DNA of 64,000 bases from Gossypium raimondii (taxonomy: Eukaryota > Streptophyta > Magnoliopsida > Malvales > Malvaceae). Below the pieces are notes generated by a model. The model saw only the letters and a program-made list of their open reading frames with translations, had not been told where the DNA came from and made no database searches. The position numbers and the translations under genes were made by a program. This document shows, one piece after another, positions 2,637 to 61,300 of this stretch (positions are counted from its first letter, which is position 1; each line of letters begins with the position of its first letter). The stretch covers positions 46,913,192 to 46,977,191 of the forward strand of contig NC_068566.1 in the NCBI RefSeq assembly GCF_025698545.1. The letters run 5' to 3'.

Positions 2637-3140
2637 TTGGGTTGCCTTAATTTTATTTTTCCCTTTTATGCATATTGGATACCGCGTCGTGGAAAGGGCA
2701 TTGTATTTCATTTTCTAATAGCAAAATACCAAGTAGAGTCCTTTTCGCCTTCGGGTGCCAAATCCGAAAGCAAAAGAAGAGACGTCTCACTTGTGCCGTA
2801 TTGCGCACTACCTATAGACGGACAGACGCCTACTCATGAACCAATGATATTTGCTCAAGCCAACTACTTAGAAAGTCCAATCTTGGTCCATAGAATTAGA
2901 GCTACCAAATTTTTTTTGATTCAAAATCGTACTATTCGGTTTGATTTACTTGTGTTTAGCAGTATTTATAGAGCGAGGAGAACTCAACTTAGATATGATA
3001 TTGAAATCAAACAAGGCAAGGATGAGAGTGGTTTGGGGCGGTTTACAATAAGGTGGAAAGTCGTTGTATGTGGCGATCGGGGAATAGAGGTTGTTAGTTC
3101 AAGGGAGTTAGATGTGGAGAGAGAGAGTTCTCGGGACTGA
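2637..3140 (+). other. Long isolated ORF with organelle-like composition, possible NUMT fragment
   Basis: A 167-codon open frame, beginning at a non-ATG codon, in otherwise stop-rich DNA. The segment 2680-2880 is more GC-balanced than its flanks and contains phrases such as 'ccttcgggtgccaaatccg' that look more like plant mitochondrial DNA than nuclear intergenic DNA. I could not match the peptide to a named mitochondrial protein. The second half (from about 2920) looks like unrelated nuclear repeat. Possible organelle insertion; weak evidence. Confidence 0.25.
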
Positions 3141-3179
3141 GGGCTTATATACTCTCAGTTATGATCTCGTGATGTGTCA

Positions 3180-3440
3180 TTTTTTATTGGTAGTCTTAAA
3201 GTAAGTTGGCCACATGACCTGTCACTATAGACTTAGGTAGGGTGGCGATTGGACATGATGTCAATCACTTTAAATGGGACATGACAATTAGTATCAGAAA
3301 TAACAGTTAATGTATGAGACCCATTTGATTGTGTGATCGAAGAGTGGTTGCAAAGGGTTGCTCTTAGGGATATTTTCAAGGAGTATCTCCAGTGGATTCC
3401 TGAAGAGCATGTCTAAGGGGTAAAGGTCTAACAAATATAT
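3180..3440 (-). repeat. Dispersed repeat copy, inverse match to 30480-30600
   Basis: The block around 3235-3295 (ggtagggtggcgattggaca ... tcactttaaatgggacatga) is a close inverse of 30515-30575 (tcccatttaaagtgattgac ... attgccaccctacctaggta). Both are parts of one old, mobile-element-derived family. The copy at 30.3-32.5 kb was later split by the long hairpin. Confidence 0.6.
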
Positions 3441-5026
3441 TTTATACTCGCTTAAGCTCAATTTGGCCCGAAATAAGGGTTTAAAAGTTTGCCCCAAATT
3501 GCTCATATTTGTAAATAACTAAACGAAGTCCACTTTAAGTCCACCCATATTAATTTTTTGATTTTTTAAAAGAAATTATATTATTTTTAATTTGATATTT
3601 ATTATTTAAATATTTACATTATAATATTATATATTACTATAGATGCTTAAGGATTTAGATTCAGGCTCTATCATTCGCATGTTTTTTTTTTAATTTAAAG
3701 TATTTTCTTATAAATTTTATATAAAGATATATGGAAATATAAAATATCCCTTACTATTTATTAATTGCATAAAGCTTGGTTTTTGGTTTTTCATTGATCA
3801 AATTGGTGTTGAATTGGCTCGTGAAACTAACCCGATCATACACTTAAATAATAGTGTAAATTATAAAAACATTGTTAATTGCATAATATATTATATAAGT
3901 ATTAAAGTTGAAATTTTTTGAACTAACAAATGGTTGAAAGAAGTGAAAGTGGACTTCTTCTTTAAGCATTTGGACTAAGTTTGAATTTTAGAGTCGATAT
4001 TGTTTAGATGATTTTACTTAAATACCACCCACAGCTCGAACAGAATTGGCATCGAATTGTAAAATGGATGAAAACACAACACTTATACCAAAAACTTGAA
4101 AATTTTTAATATTTTTCAATTAAATTAGTATCGTGTTACCTGATGATCAACTCAATCAATACTTTTAATAATAGTATGGGTAAACTATGCCCAAAGTTGC
4201 TAAACTATTAGCAAATTTACATTTTGGTCACTCAATTTCAAAAAGTTCAAAATGATCACTAAACTATTTGAAAGTTTTCATTTAAGCGACTAAATCATTC
4301 GAAAGTTTTTATTTAAGTCACTAGGTTGTTAAATTTTTTTTAAAAGTTCAGTTAATGAGCTTCAAGTAACGATTCTATAACTAGTACGGTAAATCAATAC
4401 CCATCAATGAGTAAAATAGCATACATTAGATCTAAGTTGATTTGACGGTCAAAAGTTAAATATTAGAGAAGAAAGTTATTTTGATTTTGATTCGCAAATT
4501 CATGACTTCAAAGTTGTTTCATAAAAAAAACTGAACTATAAAAGAAAAGTGAAATAAAAACTTTCAATTGAAAAAAACTACAATAATAATTTTAACAACT
4601 CAATTACTTAAATAAATAATAAAAACTTAAATTTATTAATAATTTAATATTCACCATGAATGCAGCTTACCCTAACGAAAGTGTGATTATCAATGGGAGA
4701 CCAAAAGTCTAAGCAATGTGGGAAATTAAAAAGAAAACATCAGCACTAGATTATATGTAATATATTCCCTCGATATATCCACAAAAGCCATGATTTTAGG
4801 GCAAAACCTGTCACCACTCACCATGTTGTTTGCAAATCAACGTTAAAAAGAGTATATATATATATATACACTATAGCATCTTTTTTAGTAGGTCCCAAAC
4901 CAATAATCAACCCAATCATCAGCATCATCATAATTCATAATCAAAGACCTCTTTTTGGTGTTGCAACTTTTTAATAAATCTAGAATTTATTTATTTATTT
5001 TCGTCGTAAAATTAAGAAGGAAAAAA

Positions 5027-26056: not shown

Positions 26057-27030
26057 GGTAAAAGTATTGTGGAAACCCTTTGTACTAAAAGTTAGATTGC
26101 ATTTTATTTTCTTTAGTAAAAAATTAGGTAAATTAATTCTTGCATGTTATATCAATGAGCAAATTGAACATTTTTATTAAAAATTTCAATTATTTTTACT
26201 TTTAAAAACTGGTGGCGGGTAGAAGAACCAAGACAATTACACGTATACTTATCCATGGGCCGAGAAGGCCCACCTAAAAAGTGAGAGAGTTTGAGTAAAA
26301 ATATATGGCCCAAAAATAGGATTGGACAAAAAATAATGCCCGTTTTCTAAACGGGTCAGGCCTCAAGGTAAACTTTTTTTAGCCCAGACCCGAATTTGCA
26401 AAAAAATGAATTGTTGCTTTTTTTTTTACTGTTTTTCATTGTTTTGCTATCATTTCGCTATTATATTATTACTATTTTGTTGTTATTGTTTGCGTATTGT
26501 ATAACTTTTATTTTATTATTAATTTTGTTACTATTTTAGAGATATTTGTTTGCTAAGTTGTACTTATCTTAGTGTTATTTAAGTTTTTTTTTTAAATTTC
26601 TTTCCCATTTATTGGGAAACATTTATTTTAATATTTTTATTATATTCGATGTGTTATATTTTTTAATTTATTTTTATATAAAAAATTTAATATGAGCGGG
26701 TTGGGTCGGGTTTAGATTTTAGCATTTTTATCTCAATTGGACATGGGCAAAATTTTAGACTCATTTTTCAAGTCGAGTCAAGCCTGGGCCTAATTGTTTT
26801 ACTTGGCTCGACTCATGGACAACTCCAGTTACACGTGATGTGTCATGTGTACCTTATTCTGACGTACAAAGACTAATTTTTAACAAAAAAATGGATGAAA
26901 TCTTTAACAGAAGTCTAGTTTTCTCTTTAATCTAACATGTATAGACTAATTTGCCTATTTTTTAGTAGAAAGACAAAGTACAATCCAACTCTTAACACAA
27001 CTACACAAGTACCTCCACAATGCTTTTACC
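26057..27030. mobile_element. Mutator-type fold-back MITE, interrupted by a hAT-like insertion
   Basis: The left terminus ggtaaaagtattgtggaaac is the inverted partner of the right terminus cctccacaatgcttttacc. The inverted similarity continues inward for at least 150 bp (e.g. 'gcatgttatatcaatgagc' against 'taatctaacatgtatag'). It is the same family as 52620-52908, 58575-58942 and 35955-36200. The flanking target duplication is weak here (ttaaaatta / tgaaatatta). Confidence 0.7.
26245..26828. mobile_element. hAT-like non-autonomous element nested in the fold-back MITE
   Basis: The element is bounded by a perfect 8-bp direct repeat, ttacacgt at 26237-26244 and again at 26829-26836. The termini are inverted: 'cttatccatgggccgag' at the left and 'ggctcgactcatggacaac' at the right. 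The interior is rich in 'gggtcgggt' / 'cgggtcagg' motifs and A/T runs, with no transposase. It resembles the larger element at 62188-63287. Confidence 0.75.
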
Positions 27031-30092: not shown

Positions 30093-30728
30093 TCAAAACA
30101 TACATTATTGGGAGTTCTTCAAAAGAAGAAAAAAAACTATAATTAAGATTTCTAGTTCTATGGCACATCCATATTGTGGGTAAAAAAAAGTGTATGTACA
30201 TATATTTATAAAAAAAATTATATTAAAATCAAGTGAGTCATTGGTTGAAATGATTTAAATGTTTAAAATTCATAGTTTATAAGTTTAAATCCTGTTATTG
30301 TTATAGTATTAGTTTACTAAAAACATGAAATAATAAATATACCTTTGTTATACCCTTACTTCACAGGGGCAACCCCTCGAGCGGATTCCTTGGATAGACT
30401 TCTTAGTATGGCACTCACAAAGGTCCCACCTACTCCTTGAGCACACTCTTCAAAAATATTTCTTGGCTTAATATTCGTGTAGACCCCATTAACTAATTGT
30501 CATCTTTGAATCCAATTACCGCATCCCATTTAAAGTGATTGACAACACGTTCAATTGCCACCCTACCTAGGTATATAGTGGCGGGCCACTTGTTTGTGAG
30601 CCACCAATATGGACTTCACATGTGACACCTTAAGACTGTAGCTAAGAGTATAAAATCCCTTGACTCCAATAGAAAAGGGGATTCTCTTTTCTCTCTCATC
30701 CCCCTATTCTCCTTCAACCTTCTTTTCT

Positions 30729-32394
30729 TGTAATGACCCAAAATTCACAAGCATCGAAAAAGTACATTATCGGGCCTCTGTCTTAGTAAATTGAGTTCGA
30801 AAATAATTATTAGAAATATTTATTAGACTAGTTGTGTGTTTAATTAGGTTTTAGATAGGTGAATTTAGCCTAATTAAAGTAATTAGTAAAAAGGATTAAA
30901 TTACAATAGAAGTAAAAGTTTAATTATAGATTAAAATAAAATAAGAGGGACTAAATAGGTAAATAAGCCAATAGCTAAAGTTAGGCGGCAATAGATGGAA
31001 AAATCTTAGATTTTTATGTTTTATATATATTATTTTATTATATAATATATATTATATTATATTATATTGTTTTATATTATATAAATTAAATAGATAACAA
31101 ATGTATGGTAAAGATTAAGGCAAGTGTAATAGTAATAATTACATAGGTACACTTGTAATAAAATAAATATATGCTTAAATAATAAGTAAAGATTTTTTAA
31201 AATATATTATTATTAATATTATTAGTTAAAATAAAAGAAATAAAGTAAAAGAAACAATGAAACAAAGAAGAAAAGAAACAGAATAGCTAGAAAAGAAACA
31301 GAGAAAGAGACAAAAACAGGGGAAGAAAAAGGGAAAGAAAATAAAAAAGGGAAATTGAGATTTTAAAGCTTCAAGTTAATTGGTAAGCTAAATTTAGCCA
31401 TTTTCTCTTCATTTTGATGTTTTAGAAGCTTTAAAACAAAGTTTTGTCTCTAACAAATAAACCCTCAATTCCACCATTTATTCAACATAAACCCTAATTT
31501 AAGGCTTTTTGTAACTTAATCCCAACTATGTAAAACTTACAACTTAGTTTACAAATCATTCTTTTTATCTATTCTAACTAGAAATTCTATCAACTAAACC
31601 CCTAATTTAACAACTTGTTCAAAATGAATCATGTTCAAAAACCTATGAACTTCCATAACCTCCACTTAACTTCAACAAAACTTTGTTTTAAAGCTTCTAA
31701 AACATCAAAATGAAGAGAAAATGACTAAATTTAGCTTACCAATTAACTTGAAGCTTTAAAATCTCAATTTTCCTTTTTTATTTTCTTTCCCTTTTTCTTC
31801 CCCTGTTTTTCGTCTCTTTCTCTGTTTCTTTTCTAGCTATTCTGTTTCTTTTCTTCTTTGTTTCATTGTTTCTTTTACTTTATTTCTTTTATTTTAACTA
31901 ATAATATTAATAATAATATATTTTAAAAAATCTTTACTTATTATTTAAGCATATATTTATTTTTATTACAAGTGTACCTATGTAATTATTACTATTACAC
32001 TTGTCTTAATCTTTACCATACATTTGTCATCTATTTAATTTATATAATATAAAATAATATAATATAATATAATATATATTATATAATAAAATAATATATA
32101 TAAAACATAAAAATCTAAGATTTTTCCATCTATTGCCGCCTAACTTTAGCTATTGGCTTATTTACCTATTTAGTCCTCTTATTTTATTTTAATTTATAAT
32201 TAAACTTTCACTTCTATTGTAATTTAATCCTTTTACTAATTACTCTTAATTAGGCTAAATTCACCTATCTAAAACCTAATTAAACACACAACTAGTCTAA
32301 TAAATATTTCTAATAATTATTTTCGAACTCAATTTACTAAGACGGAGGCCCGATAATGTACTTTTTCGATGCTTGTGAATTTTGGGTCATTACA
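30729..32394. repeat. Long inverted repeat (hairpin), arms about 719 bp
   Basis: The left arm 30729-31447 starts tgtaatgacccaaaattcac. The right arm 31675-32394 is its reverse complement and ends with the matching gggtcattaca. I compared the outer ~170 bp and several inner blocks base by base and saw only scattered substitutions and small indels, so the arms are near-identical. The 227-bp loop (31448-31674) is unrelated to the arms. No ORF is present. The whole structure begins TG and ends CA, with tttct / tttcc as a possible 5-bp target duplication. It splits an older repeat whose parts flank it at 30340-30728 and 32395-32500. Origin (Mutator-like element, or two LTRs joined head to head) is undecided. 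Confidence 0.9.
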
Positions 32395-32506
32395 TTTCCA
32401 ACTCTATTTTATCTCCTCGAAGCACCCTCTATGGTGGCTCTCCGCCTTGTACCCAACTAGGTGAACCACCTAGCTCTCCTATCCACTCCACCTATTAGAT
32501 TCAAGT

Positions 32507-32737
32507 CAGGGGTGAAGAAAATTTTTTTTTTAGGGGGGACGAATGAAATTTTAATTTTAATAGTCTATATATTTATAGTTTTTAAATGATTAAATCAAAT
32601 TTTTATAATTTTAAGGGGAGCCAAAGTACAATTTTACCTTTATTAATTTAAAATTTTAAAAATTTTTAAAGGGCCTAAATAGTAATTTTCTATTTTAGGG
32701 GGGCGGGGCCCTTGCCAGCCCCCTAGATTCTCCTCTG
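32507..32737. mobile_element. Small hAT-type MITE, copy 2
   Basis: This 231-bp element is flanked by attcaagt (32499-32506) and attcaagc (32738-32745), an 8-bp duplication with one mismatch. The termini are caggggtgaag and gattctcctctg. Interior words ('tttaatagtctatatattta', 'ttaaagggcctaaatagtaa') match copy 1 at 28557-28809. Confidence 0.83.
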
Positions 32738-34465: not shown

Positions 34466-35954
34466 TCTTTTAAGTTCTCATCCATTCAACAATATATCCT
34501 ATATGGCTCGAAACAACAAAGTAACATACGCTAGTACTTATATATATAGCTGAAATAATAGCTCAAGGTATAGCAGAATGCAGACACACCCTATTGTGTA
34601 CTTATATATATATATATATATAAAATAACTTTAAGACTCGAAATAATTTGATTCGAGAAATTCAAATTTAAAATGACCCGAATCTTAAAAAAAATAATCG
34701 AATCACATTAAAAAGTAAAATATGGAATTAACTTACCTACTCTATCAGCTGGTGTAGCTTGAGGCAGACCCCCAATAAGCCATTGTAGATAATGCAGATG
34801 CTTGACCTCTTCTTTTTTATTTTTTTTATTTTTATATATAATAGAAAAATGAGTTGCCAAAAAGTAGGTCAATGTTTTTGCTATATGATTATCAGGTTTT
34901 CTCCTTCATGAAAACACTGTTTCATCTAATCCTATATATATATACCACTTTAAATGGTTGAATTTGATTGCTTCTTCTTCATTCTTCAAACAGTACCTAA
35001 CCTAAATTATGCTGATCCTGAAATGGAAATGGAAATATTTTCTTAATTAATTATATACAATGAATTAATTCTCTTTCCATATTTTTTTATTATTTCTTAT
35101 CAAATTTTGAAGTCAATTTATGAATTAAGCTGCCATTAAACTTCCAATAATCTTAAGGTGCCTTTGGATAACTCAAGTGCGTGGCACGTTTATCGCAGAA
35201 AGTGCCTCAGCGATTCCTTTGGATTGCATGTTTCGATGAATGGTTTTCAGACTATACTTAACGAGAGATTTATCGGGATATCAGTTGACTTATAAATCAA
35301 TATGAATTAATTAAATTATATTAAATTAAAATTTTAATTTTTTTTATATTTTTAAATTTTAATGATTTTTAAATGAATCGATTGAATTGGTAAACTATAA
35401 TTTGATTGGTTTAATCATCTTTTCGATTCTAATTTATTTCATTTTTAAAAATCATTTATTATTTTAGTTGTTAATTATTTTGGTTTAAAGGTTTTTTAAA
35501 TATTTTCATATTAATATAATAAATGTATTTATATAATTATATGTTAATTAATCAGAATATTTAAATTATTTCTATATTTTAGTAATTTTAATGTTTTTAA
35601 TTATTTATTAATTTTCAAATATGTTATAAGTTTTACTATGTACAAATGTTATTTTAATGTACCTAATAGTCATTTTATTTTCTCATTATAATTTACCTTA
35701 TTGCAATCATTGCGATTGAAACCAAACACATGTTTCATCACTGATTTGAATCTCACCACTACCGTAAATAATCTCATTGTCACTATTGTTTCAATGTCAC
35801 CAAAATCAATTTCATCACCCATCCAAATAGATCCTTAGTAGATAAGCTCTATTATTTTAAATATTTTAATCGATTAAATTGTATCTTCGACATTTTTGTT
35901 GAGATAGATAGAGTATATTGATAAATAATTCACATACGATATATTACAAGCTCA

Positions 35955-36200
35955 GATAAAAGTACCACGGAGGCCCCTATACTAGGAATCAGATTGAATT
36001 GTCTCTTCTTCTAAAAAAAATGGGCAAATTAGCTCATGTATATTATATCAAAGAGCAAACTGGTCATTTTGTTAAAAATTTCATCTATTTCTATTGTTAA
36101 AAACTGGTCTATGTTTATCCGCATGAGGTACATGTGACACATCACATGTTACTGTCTGGTCATTCCATTAACCACATCAAAGTTTAGTAGTACAAGGTTA
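35955..36200. mobile_element. Truncated Mutator-type fold-back MITE
   Basis: It begins 'agataaaagtaccacggagg' and 'cccctatactaggaatcaga', matching one terminus of the elements at 58575 and 52620. It continues through 'atatcaaagagcaaactgg' but lacks the matching second terminus. Confidence 0.55.
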
Positions 36201-52500: not shown

Positions 52501-53894
52501 AGGTGTGTTGAGATGGAAACGGGTCAATGTGTACATCAACAAGAAATCTCAGGTACTCAAATACAAATGCACCAAGAAACCATATTCAAATTTCCCCTTT
52601 TTTTTCTCATGATAAAGAAGGTAAAAGTATCATGAAGGTCCTTGGATTAGGAGTCAGAATACATTTTGCTCCACTTATTAAAAAATTGGGCAAATTAACC
52701 TATATATTATAGATTAAAAAGCAAATATGTATTTCCGTTAAAAATTCTATCCATTTCTATGCTAAAAATTAGTCTTTCTACATCCGTATGATATACCAAA
52801 AGACATGTCATTACTGATTATTTCATTAATCACACTAATTTTTAACAATAAAACGTACATAAATTAAATTATCTATTTTTAAACCTAACTACCTATGGTA
52901 ATTTTACCAATAAAGAAATCATATTCAAAATACAAAGTAATGCAGTACATATTGCAAGCTCTTATAAAGAAAGCTGCCATTGTCAGGTAATAATTAAGCT
53001 CAAAAGCAAACACGTTGGGGGAGCATTCTCCAACAACAATAAATGTAAGCACCTCTCTTATTTTATTAAGTTAAATTTTGCTATTAGTCCTTGTATTTTA
53101 TGAAAGTTGTGTATTTAGTCCTTGCACTTCAAATGATCAAATTTAGCCTTTATACTTTTCAAATTTTGAAAATTTAAGCTTAACCCAAATAGTAACAATT
53201 AAATTCGTTTGGTTAAATTCAACTACCAGTCTTATATTATGTGTACAATTTTAGATTTAGTCCATATTATATATTTAGATAATTCTAAGTTCCTATACTT
53301 TTCGAATTTTAAAATTCTAGCATTGATGTAAACCATAGTCGTTAAACCATTAAATGAGTTTGTAATGAGTGATATGTTGAAATAACATGCCGATGTAGCA
53401 TTATACATATGATAATATGTTTGTCGTATCATATCTTGAAAATAGCATAACTTAATAAATTTAACGGTGACCATTTGGTGAGGACTGAAATTTTAAAGCT
53501 CGAAACGTACAAGGACTGAAAATGATCAAATAAAAGTACAAAGACTAGTAGCACAATTTAATATTTTTTTACCATTTTACAAAAGAGTACAGGGACTAAA
53601 ACAACAATTAAACCGTTTTATTTTTCTCTAACATTTATCCTGTTTGCAGGTATTGTTTATGGAGTGTGTGATGAGACATCAGCATGGCCATATAGAAAAG
53701 AAAGGGAAACTTCAGATTCAGAGGAACTCTATTTTGGTCTCAAAACAGGGCAGGGGCTGTTAGAATTCAAGTGTAAAAGCAAAATTGACAAGCAAAAATG
53801 GGTGGATGGGATTCAAAATCTACTACGACAAGTCTGCCATGGTCAACCACCTGAGCTTTCTCTTGAATCTTTGAGTATTAACGATGGTATATAG
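49564..53894 (+). CDS. VAN3-binding/FORKED-like protein: DUF828 plus PH-like domain (6 exons)
   Basis: Exons 49564-49815, 50362-50749, 51636-51800, 52503-52552, 52987-53044 and 53650-53894; 385 aa, in frame throughout. In Arabidopsis this family (VAB/FKD1 and relatives) works with the ARF-GAP VAN3 in vesicle traffic that positions PIN auxin carriers during vein patterning. The N-terminus has the family motif PMEFLSRSWSLSTSEISKAL (residues 39-58). Exon 2 is the DUF828 core (KDKIRAENARLHSAVSIAG, then an Ala-rich helix region with AELAGADHDRVASVVKSAVD). The C-terminal PH-like domain runs from about VLRWKRVNVYINKKSQ (272-287) to DKQKWVDGIQNLLRQV. Likely orthologue of At5g47440/At4g17350, from memory. 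Four of its five introns carry recognisable MITEs or degenerate repeats; the coding parts look intact. Confidence 0.9.
49992..50353. repeat. Fold-back MITE ending at the exon 2 splice acceptor
   Basis: The left end (ggtctaatttaggttttagt ccttctactatgttaaaat) is the inverted partner of the right end (attttatcatagtacaagga ctaaaaattgattaaacc). The right end stops 8 bp before the acceptor AG of DUF828/PH exon 2 (50362). Confidence 0.7.
50900..51235. repeat. Fold-back MITE in DUF828/PH intron 2
   Basis: Left (aaatatatcattagttttcg ... ttaacctctatgcttttat) and right (aaattatatagactaaattc ... aatttatggcatatttt) ends are inverted copies, with a central palindrome. Same family as 8508-8840 in the pectinesterase gene. 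Confidence 0.6.
52620..52908. mobile_element. Mutator-type fold-back MITE in DUF828/PH intron 4
   Basis: This 289-bp element is flanked by gataaagaa (52611-52619) and aataaagaa (52909-52917), a 9-bp duplication with one mismatch. The ends are ggtaaaagtatc and ggtaattttacc. Internal words (ttaggagtcagaatacattt, tgggcaaattaacctatata) match 58575-58942. A 9-bp duplication points to a Mutator-type transposase. Confidence 0.8.
53073..53617. repeat. Fold-back element in DUF828/PH intron 5
   Basis: Left (aattttgctattagtccttg ... gtatttagtccttgcactt) and right (gtacaaagactagtagcaca ... tacagggactaaaacaaca) ends are inverted copies; a nested duplicate of the end motif lies near 53220-53280. Same broad family as 33964-34465. 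Confidence 0.6.
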
Positions 53895-58316: not shown

Positions 58317-61300
58317 CTATGCATGCCATACACCTAATGCTTCTCCAACACGGATTTTATCTCCCCGTCTAATAGAAAACTCAAACTCTGAAGCATCATT
58401 GTTCTTTGGTGAATTTGATGTTGGGGCTTGGAAAACAAGGACAACCGTTGATCCCATATTGAAAGCCGCGACCTAGAATGAAGTGCATGGAATTATATAT
58501 ATCTTGATACTACTTCCAAATATGAAACAAATTTTACACGATATGCATAAGAAGACCAAAAGTACAACTCTAGTCAGTAAAAGTACCATAAAAGCCCCTA
58601 TACTAAGAGTCAAATTGTATTTTATTCTCTCTACTCAAAAAATAAAAAATTAATTCCTATACGATAAATCAAAGAGCCAATTAATCATTTTTACTAAAAA
58701 TCTCATCCATTTGTATCCTTAAAAATTGATGTGGCTCATGGAATAACCAAACAGTGACGTGGTATGTCACCTCATGTTAAGGTACAGGAACCAGTTCTTA
58801 ATGGCAAAAATGGATGAAATTTTTAGTAGAAAAAACAGATTGCACTTTGATCTAATGTACAGGGACTAATTTGCCTATTTTTTGAGTAGAAGGACAAAAC
58901 ACAATCTGACTCCTAGTACAAGGGTCTCCATTGTACTTTTACCAATTTTAGTTGTCTGTGAGGCATCTGGTTTTGAAAGAAAAGTTGTGTATCGAACCTC
59001 ATCTCCCTTTTTAAGCATCACACCGACTCCTTTAGGTTCATATAAATGTTCTTCCGGAGGCTCTGATGGTATCAACTTTTTTCTTGGCCTGTTTGTCCGA
59101 AGTTCTGGTTCGATGAAAAGCTGTGAAGTACAAATTATGGTGTCAAAAGACAGATTCCAATTGAAGAACATATTCGTGTCTATGCATGTATCTGCTGTCT
59201 AAATAGGATTCGATTTTTTTAAGGTTCAGGGTAGAAAGGGGCATTGGCACTGAACCTCAATTGAACCAATATTCGTTGCGCCAACTGCTGCAATTGCCAT
59301 AAAACCTTGTTGCCATAGACCTTCAAGGACAACCTGATGATAGGAAAATTGCAACAGCAATTCAGAGAAATTTAAATATAACTAACCAAAACAATTTAGC
59401 ACTTGAATGTAAGCTCAAAAATCTCCAAATATCATGATTCTCAGGAAATTTAAATAATGTTCTAAATACACCACTCTATCTTCATCTTTCAGATATCATG
59501 TCATCGGCTTGTTTTATCCTTTCCCAACTTGCATCTTTTAATCCAACAATTTGCACGCATCAAGACCATAGAATCATATAAGAAAACTGACAAAGTACAT
59601 AGAGGGCATTTTAAGTTGTTGACACATTAGATTTACCCTTTCATTCTCGACATAAAGGTTCCTGATTGTTCTTGTAGCACGTTCATTCACAGGAAACAAG
59701 CGGCCTGCGAAATATGCAACAGATCAAATGATATCATTTGATACTATCACTGTACAAAGAAACTCCTTGGCGTAGTATGCAACTATAAAATCAAAGTTAC
59801 CTGAAAAATGCCGTCGAACAAGAACATTCCAATCAACTGGTGAATGTATGCGATGATAGTCTCCTGGTTTCAAATATATTACACAGTAATAGAGGCCTTT
59901 CATTGGACTGCAAAAAAGATTTTATGTATAAACTTACTTTAACTCATAGATGGTTTATAGCAGTTAAATCATGTAAATTACTTCCAGAGATAAAACTGCT
60001 TAACAAATTCGAAAGCAAGTTTAAGGAAAACATCAAAAGACTTACTATCGAATCTAAACAAAAACAAATTACTGTTATAAACAAAAAAAAAGGGCGAATA
60101 TTGCACAAACTGAATAGGCGAATATTTTTACAAGATTACCACTCCGAAATTGTTTCCCGGACTTTAGGAGAAGCCAATGAAACGCGCCACCATGACTTCT
60201 TACTCTGTTCTCTCTGAGTGCTTTCCTGCTCAATAGTACTACCGTCATCTTCAGTATTTTTCTCAGCTAGCATCGAGAGCAAAGGACTAGCACCAAGAAG
60301 AGATGAAACAGAATAGGAGAATCCTTTGACTTGGTCAATCATAGCCCCTGCACCGTTCAACTTCCCAAATCTAAGAATAGTACCATCCACAGGACTGACC
60401 TGTTATTTAACAGAACACTCTTAGCAATGCTTCAGAGTGACACAAATGAAAATATTAACATGTCCAAGATGCTCGTTACCAGTTACCAGACTATAGGGAT
60501 TAGGATTGATAGGCCTGCAACCTTCTTTCAATGTGCGAACAAAGAAATCCCTTAAAGACGCATATTCTTCAAGAGGGAGAGCTGCTTCTTCTAGGTCTTA
60601 AATGCAAACCAAAATACCACATCATAAGTTATTCTTCATTCTCAGTTGACTGTGCATTTATCTCATCAATCGACAAAAGCGATCTAAAGGAAAATGAGAA
60701 GGGAAAAGATATGAGGTAAACATACTTGAGTGGAAAGCACGAGCCCATGCTCTATAAACATGCGGCCGCAGCCAAACTGGAATGTCCTAAAAAACAATCT
60801 TTAAGCAGGTAAAAGGATAACAAAACAATACAACAAAATAAAATAAAATAAAAAGCAAGAACAGGAGCATGGGAACTGTCATCAATCAAACTCTAAGAGT
60901 ACTTTTAAACTCAAGTCAAGCGAGTTTAACTTGAAAAACAAAAAGGAATTTCAAAAATCCAATTAAAATAAGAAAAAAAGAAATCTTAAAAGAGCCAATG
61001 ATTCAAAATTAAGAAAATTACTCACCACACTCATCAAGAAGCCCCAAGCTCTAGAAATAGATCGCAATGGTAGTATCCTTAGAAATGAAGCCTAAAAGTT
61101 GGTAAGGTTCAAAAGATATATGAAAATCATATAAAAAACGAAAATAAGAAAAACACATGAGAAATTAAAATGGAGAAATTAATATAAATATACTACTTTT
61201 ACATCCGGTCGGAACTCGAATTCAATCCCTTTCTCCCGTGCTTCTTCAACCTACTACCAAAAATACATATATCAGTAATAGCCAGAAACTAGCACTGCCC

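Follow-up and report, generated by a model that had tools for sequence, protein, structure and literature searches.

A cotton LTR hairpin that very probably arose as a retrotransposon cDNA with two U3 ends

Introduction

The question raised by this locus is how a long, almost perfect hairpin came to lie within repetitive DNA of Gossypium raimondii, and what an RNA crossing it might do. The hairpin was noticed in a stretch of 64,000 nucleotides (the window, to which plain coordinates refer), and the original prediction placed two origins side by side, namely an LTR-related structure and a Mutator-like element. By taking into account the anatomy of the arms, their relatives in the genome and the target site, it is proposed that the hairpin is very probably an aberrant cDNA of an LTR retrotransposon, bounded by a U3 terminus on both sides and integrated as one unit. 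For the initial recognition of a new LTR retrotransposon by the plant, LTR hairpins are one proposed trigger, and the present locus would be such an LTR hairpin, ready-made by a single insertion.

Anatomy of the hairpin and age of the arms

On C2, the left arm (30,729–31,447, plus strand, 719 bp) is inverted with respect to the right arm (31,675–32,394, minus strand, 720 bp), and the two are separated by a loop of 227 bp (31,448–31,674, minus strand). The alignment of one arm to the other extends over 722 columns with 709 matches, eight substitutions and five one-base indels (blastn: E-value 0.0, 98.2% identity), in full agreement with the two inverted arms of approximately 719 bp with scattered differences that had been predicted. 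The predicted TG...CA ends are also there, the arms starting exactly at TG and finishing exactly at CA, and the arms are indeed better matched than the surrounding fold-backs, the remaining close inverted repeats of at least 60 bp listed in the window being only about 58–75% identical. The longest stop-to-stop frame touching the hairpin is of 49 amino acids. A purine-rich, leader-like tract of the LTR (31,229–31,360, plus strand, 88% purine) is followed by GGTAAG at 31,382, and none of the 62,070 windows of 132 bp outside the hairpin matches the purine or pyrimidine extreme of this tract.

A search of the whole window against Rfam at the gathering threshold returned two matches, none of which within the hairpin, and the exact 20-base end pattern found no match in either viral_contigs or genome_contigs. 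Elsewhere in the window, Rfam MIR7502 matches both strands at 58,692–58,828 (100.8 and 82.5 bits) within a palindromic fold-back (58,564–58,955) with relatives at 35,954–36,186, 26,826–27,000 and 52,619–52,834; from its sequence, what is annotated as a miRNA family resembles a fold-back transposon.

All eight substitutions between the arms are transitions, and seven of the eight are C:G to T:A when the polarity is taken from the base that prevails among 20 related copies, as either DNA methylation or the usual bias of mutation would lead one to expect. The alignment of the 20 copies scores a ninth substitution, at 584, which the pairwise alignment counts as an indel. The 8–9 substitutions in 717 columns compare with the 10 in 708 that separate the LTR pair of an element on C9 of the same family (see below), so that the arms resemble two parts that came into being together when the insertion took place. 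At the commonly used substitution rate of 1.3 × 10⁻⁸ per site per year, the insertion would be about 0.4 million years old. The proposal that the insertion is recent is in line with a between-arm substitution level of about 1.1%, whereas gene conversion, offered as the other explanation of the similarity of the arms, is unnecessary, because this similarity is no higher than age predicts from the C9 LTR pair.

The source LTR family

A search of the 750.8-Mb assembly with the left arm, in which 40 of 1,603 candidates were scored, gave 49 match rows, 40 of them spanning the whole arm with both arms of the hairpin included. The whole-arm matches elsewhere are 84–96% identical, and some of them are same-strand pairs approximately 7.5 kb apart, so that the search that had been suggested, for the arm sequence as a direct-repeat LTR elsewhere in the genome, gave a positive answer. 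In the C9 element, the LTR is 2,689 bp long, starts with TGTAATGACCC and ends with GGGGTGTTACA; directly after it is TGGTATCAGAGC in the position of the primer site, which we take to be of the iMet type (PBS). The element is flanked on both sides by AATCT, a target-site duplication with all five bases matching. Its interior contains open frames for, in this order, protease, RNase H, integrase zinc-binding and integrase C-terminal domains, the last one running off the end of the fetched piece, along with gag and zinc-knuckle matches that are under the curated cut-offs. A polypurine tract, GGGG(GG)AGAAA, immediately precedes the TG of U3 in six of 20 copies, as at the start of a 3' LTR.

On these sequence features the source is a Ty3/Gypsy family. 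Thus, the hairpin is made of sequence from an LTR that elsewhere flanks gag-pol as direct repeats, whereas its own two ends are not the expected pair of one U3 and one U5: both are U3, and the U5 end GGGGTGTTACA is at neither of them.

Some members of the family show peculiarities of their own. In L025 (G000:C1:6387500-6391500), an LTR is preceded by a polypurine tract and followed by a primer site, an arrangement like that of tandemly arrayed LTR retrotransposons. The same-strand LTRs of L008 and L015 (G000:C8:42575321, 42582938) are approximately 7.6 kb apart and are not sisters in the tree, which suggests recombination between elements or neighbouring insertions.

How the arms were joined

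When read on the minus strand, the right arm (LTR positions 1–720) and the loop (721–947) form an uninterrupted stretch, LTR positions 1–947, in all six related loci inspected (L003–L008), each of which runs on past position 947 into LTR sequence that is absent from the hairpin. The loop therefore has the predicted length of 227 bp but is not the unrelated sequence that had been described, since in the source LTR the same sequence follows on from the right arm, and the possibility that it is unrelated filler was rejected on the same six loci. With a 140-base query across the junction of left arm and loop (40 of 639 candidates scored), the only whole match was the hairpin locus itself, the other 66 rows covering one side each, with a boundary no more than 3 bases away from the junction. 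Since right arm and loop are native, and the junction is whole only at the hairpin among the candidates scored, the left arm (an inverted copy of LTR positions 1–719) is the added piece; with the same scope, nothing in these sequences suggests a multi-copy transposon. Furthermore, both arms being the start of the LTR in inverted orientation, both outer ends are U3 (TG) ends, that of the left arm reading TGTAATGACCC. The LTR origin that had been put forward is thus borne out, the arm corresponding to the first 719 bp of a direct-repeat LTR; the head-to-head joining that went with it is not, as the inner tails are joined and the heads point outward.

In a 22-row tree, the arms are sisters (support 88/85; branches of 0.0055 and 0.0071), and two one-base indels are common to both and found in none of 20 other copies. 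Against this relation, the support is moderate, and, counted in substitutions, single copies such as L009 and L013 stand at about the same distance from each arm (8–10 in 689–694) as that which separates the two arms. No microhomology is visible by eye at the junction of left arm and loop, which favours joining of two molecules over snap-back, since the latter would usually leave microhomology. As a separate observation on this part of the LTR (loop and following LTR, L003–L008), a stretch of approximately 116 bp is repeated about 145 bp further on with 73–75% identity, and the hairpin breakpoint at LTR position 947 lies inside the second unit.

The target site

The insert is bounded by TTTCT on the left (30,724–30,728) and by TTTCC on the right (32,395–32,399), a probable 5-bp target-site duplication with four of the five bases matching, a level that 3.7% of random 5-mer pairs from the region equal or exceed. 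By its sequence, the target was an older dispersed repeat: the left half (30,346–30,728, plus strand, with TATAAA at 30,649) has 17 matches in the genome and the right half (32,395–32,510, plus strand, end approximate; right-flank search) has three, self included in both cases. The joined flanks align as one stretch in all six paralogs examined, several of them being poor at the junction. These paralogs are without the insert, and the best preserved of them, L044, is diverged. With 30-base flanks, L044 is best fitted when 5 bases, out of the 0–12 tried, are removed from the joined flanks; with 60-base flanks the best fit is at 10 bases and not at 5, and none of the other five paralogs points to 5, each being either uninformative or better fitted by another value. 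A 5-bp duplication at the hairpin is likely, not proven, on this sequence comparison. Within the window, 30,340–30,728 and 2,960–3,445 (minus strand) are related to each other as members of an old, dispersed repeat that contains a TATA box, and the repeat at 2,900–3,700, when tried as an empty site, gave clear similarity for the left flank only.

Other U3-U3 insertions in the genome

In the genome, 318 sites carry the first 20 bases of the U3 end. Inspection by eye of neighbours less than 10 kb apart yielded at least 15 pairs, 11 in the same orientation, four convergent (hairpin included) and none divergent among the matches listed, a count that rests on 100 of the 318 sites and 100 of the 167 of one subset, which overlap. 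One of the other convergent pairs is that at C5:21051325-21060309 (8,985 bp; L051, L052), a U3-U3 structure whose inverted arms, 95.2% identical, measure at least about 3.28 kb, a lower bound as they were followed to the end of the fetched pieces. The arms hold LTR, primer site and interior, and the flanks are TCATA on both sides, a perfect 5/5 duplication, with an LTR that is only approximately 75% like that of the C9 element.

The insertion at C2:31481483-31484317 (L048, 584–3418) is also U3-bounded on both sides, with flanking 5-mers matching at three of five positions. It consists, on the minus strand, of approximately 175 bp of U3, the LTR end, the PBS, part of gag-pol and then 214 bp of inverted U3, with about 5 bases of overlap at the inverted junction; a frame beside it looks, by eye, like a Copia polyprotein. 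The fourth convergent pair, C5:7417766-7427483, has 119 bp of inverted similarity only and none of five bases duplicated. Judged from sequence, U3-U3 insertions are thus recurrent, and one of the three (C5:21051325-21060309) carries the full hallmark of normal integration. A limited search of the open literature, judged by titles and the starts of abstracts, found no report of U3-U3 insertions, and none of the titles obtained with the end letters TGTAATGACCC and GGGTCATTACA concerned such a hairpin.

Proposed origin and alternatives

According to PMC5371799, plus-strand synthesis in Ty3 is primed by a fragment of the polypurine tract. In the source family, plus-strand products would similarly begin at the boundary of polypurine tract and U3, and two of them may have stopped after 947 and 719 nt. 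Truncation at the far end would leave each plus-strand fragment with an intact U3 end only. The two truncated products would then be joined tail to tail or, as a variant, a single product would snap back and copy itself, the loop representing the length difference between the joined products (947 − 720 = 227). Finally, the integrase of the element would insert the U3-U3 molecule with duplication of 5 bp of the target; that the enzyme accepts two U3 ends is suggested by the duplication at C5:21051325-21060309.

A DNA transposon with 719-bp terminal inverted repeats, Mutator-like or another fold-back, would account for arms that are coterminous and for a short, non-coding interior. For a Mutator-like element a duplication of 9–11 bp with at most two mismatches is the criterion, as given in PMC3310237, and the matches at the hairpin are 4/9, 3/10 and 5/11. 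The junction has no second whole match among the 40 of 639 candidates scored, and the arm is part of an LTR from a family with polypurine tract, PBS and gag-pol domains. On these three grounds, an origin from a Mutator-like or other TIR element, which the original prediction had drawn from the length of the terminal inverted repeats, was rejected and retains hardly any probability. An assembly artefact is just as improbable. Palindromes are prone to assembly errors, but 13 of the 722 columns distinguish one arm from the other, the flanks are unrelated, the structure ends at a biological terminus and two further U3-U3 loci are found in the genome.

Two explanations accept the LTR and dispense with the cDNA. 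An ordinary element or solo LTR may have inserted first, the left arm being made by a later inverted duplication or rearrangement of the genomic DNA, with which a breakpoint lacking visible microhomology, as in end joining, would agree. However, the far end of the extra copy is the exact U3 terminus, placed at the target, and the flanks are otherwise one stretch in the paralogs. A U5 end or flanking DNA would be expected as a remnant, and the separate U3-U3 palindrome at C5:21051325-21060309 has its perfect 5-bp duplication. Such a rearrangement is considered improbable, if the least so of the four alternatives. Separate insertions of two truncated LTRs, one in each orientation, are less probable again, by a clear step: non-sister, same-strand neighbours of the source family are known on C8, and the sister support for the arms is only moderate, but the inner parts would have to be lost from both copies, which nevertheless meet at a single junction. 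The arms also share two indels seen in none of 20 copies, and the target is otherwise unbroken. An aberrant cDNA with two U3 ends, inserted in one step, is therefore by far the preferred origin.

A broader proposal is that in LTR retrotransposons plus strands started at the polypurine tract are regularly joined tail to tail into palindromic U3-U3 cDNAs that are competent for integration, and that the integrase accepts two U3 ends. Each insertion would be a ready-made hairpin gene, so that a proliferating LTR family would trigger its own siRNA silencing. This generalization is put forward tentatively, and we regard it as rather less probable than its contrary.

The predicted RNA and its possible role in silencing

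The claim that a transcript of the locus would fold into a long double-stranded RNA is upheld by structure prediction, which gives 714 mirror pairs for the plus strand and 721 for the minus strand. The predicted fold energies are −1068 and −1089 kcal/mol, respectively, compared with −243 to −281 kcal/mol for eight shuffles of the plus strand. A TATAAA, within the target repeat, lies 80 bp before the hairpin (30,649). RNA started from this flanking motif, or from an assumed LTR promoter in either arm, would cross the loop and fold to a near-complete duplex of up to approximately 715 bp, a putative Dicer-like substrate. The resulting siRNAs would match the U3/leader part of the LTRs of the family and may help to silence it. 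Of the 696 24-mers of the left arm, 498 have an exact match in one or more of the 20 copies retrieved, with a share per copy of 0.14–0.53 (median 0.40), so that the predicted siRNAs could reach many family members. An active silencing role of the hairpin, as modelled here, is possible, although on balance we would not expect it.

The most interesting part of the present analysis is the class of single-step U3-U3 palindromic insertions. The much larger palindrome at C5:21051325-21060309, with its perfect 5-bp duplication, suggests that the ordinary integration reaction is open to such cDNAs. Should U3-U3 insertions prove common, they could be counted in any assembled genome, dated from their arms and compared with small-RNA maps, and their counting would make the idea of hairpins as triggers directly testable.

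Comparison with known systems

A functional parallel may be found in Mu killer, which is said to be an inverted duplication of MuDR, a DNA transposon, with silencing shown. The likeness lies in a rearranged transposon copy, the transcript of which would be a hairpin matching active relatives; the difference is that a DNA transposon with silencing reportedly shown is compared with an LTR element known from sequence alone. The inverted-duplication silencer of MuDR is mentioned in PMC11624286 and PMC10760457.

That inverted LTRs may be what first sets off LTR silencing is discussed in PMC11624286, which sought LTR hairpins and found one nested antisense insertion, of EVD, without an siRNA test. 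As in the cotton hairpin, the inverted LTRs are there a possible source of siRNAs starting transcriptional silencing. However, the EVD case consists of two insertions, the LTRs of which lie at distances of 1,942 and 2,562 bp, as opposed to a single insertion with a 227-bp loop. A long, near-perfect hairpin is also the feature shared with IR71 and IR2039 of Arabidopsis (PMC4687873). In the dcl234 mutant the IR71 precursor builds up, which the authors credit to lost processing by DCL2, DCL3 and DCL4. The cotton hairpin differs from both in that it would derive from LTR cDNA and in that its processing is a prediction. The tandem LTR retrotransposons described, upland cotton included, in PMC11899658 are likewise abnormal joined LTR elements, but they are tandems, whereas the present locus is an inverted fusion of LTR fragments.

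With respect to lineage, PMC4029996 reports attachment-site motifs of Del (Tekay) Ty3/Gypsy elements, TGTAACACCC being the commonest U3 motif. The U5 end of the source family, GGGGTGTTACA, with GGG at −8 to −10, corresponds to type A of that account. Its U3 end, TGTAATGACCC, is two edits from the published motif, a likeness that is weak when taken alone, since 103 of the 127,976 window positions are as close or closer. The source also shares with Del/Tekay a long LTR and protease, RNase H and integrase in Gypsy order. Thus, by sequence, the U5 end fits the Del (Tekay) type A attachment site, making this a candidate lineage only, from which the hairpin insertion differs by its two U3 ends, without U5 and without a coding part.
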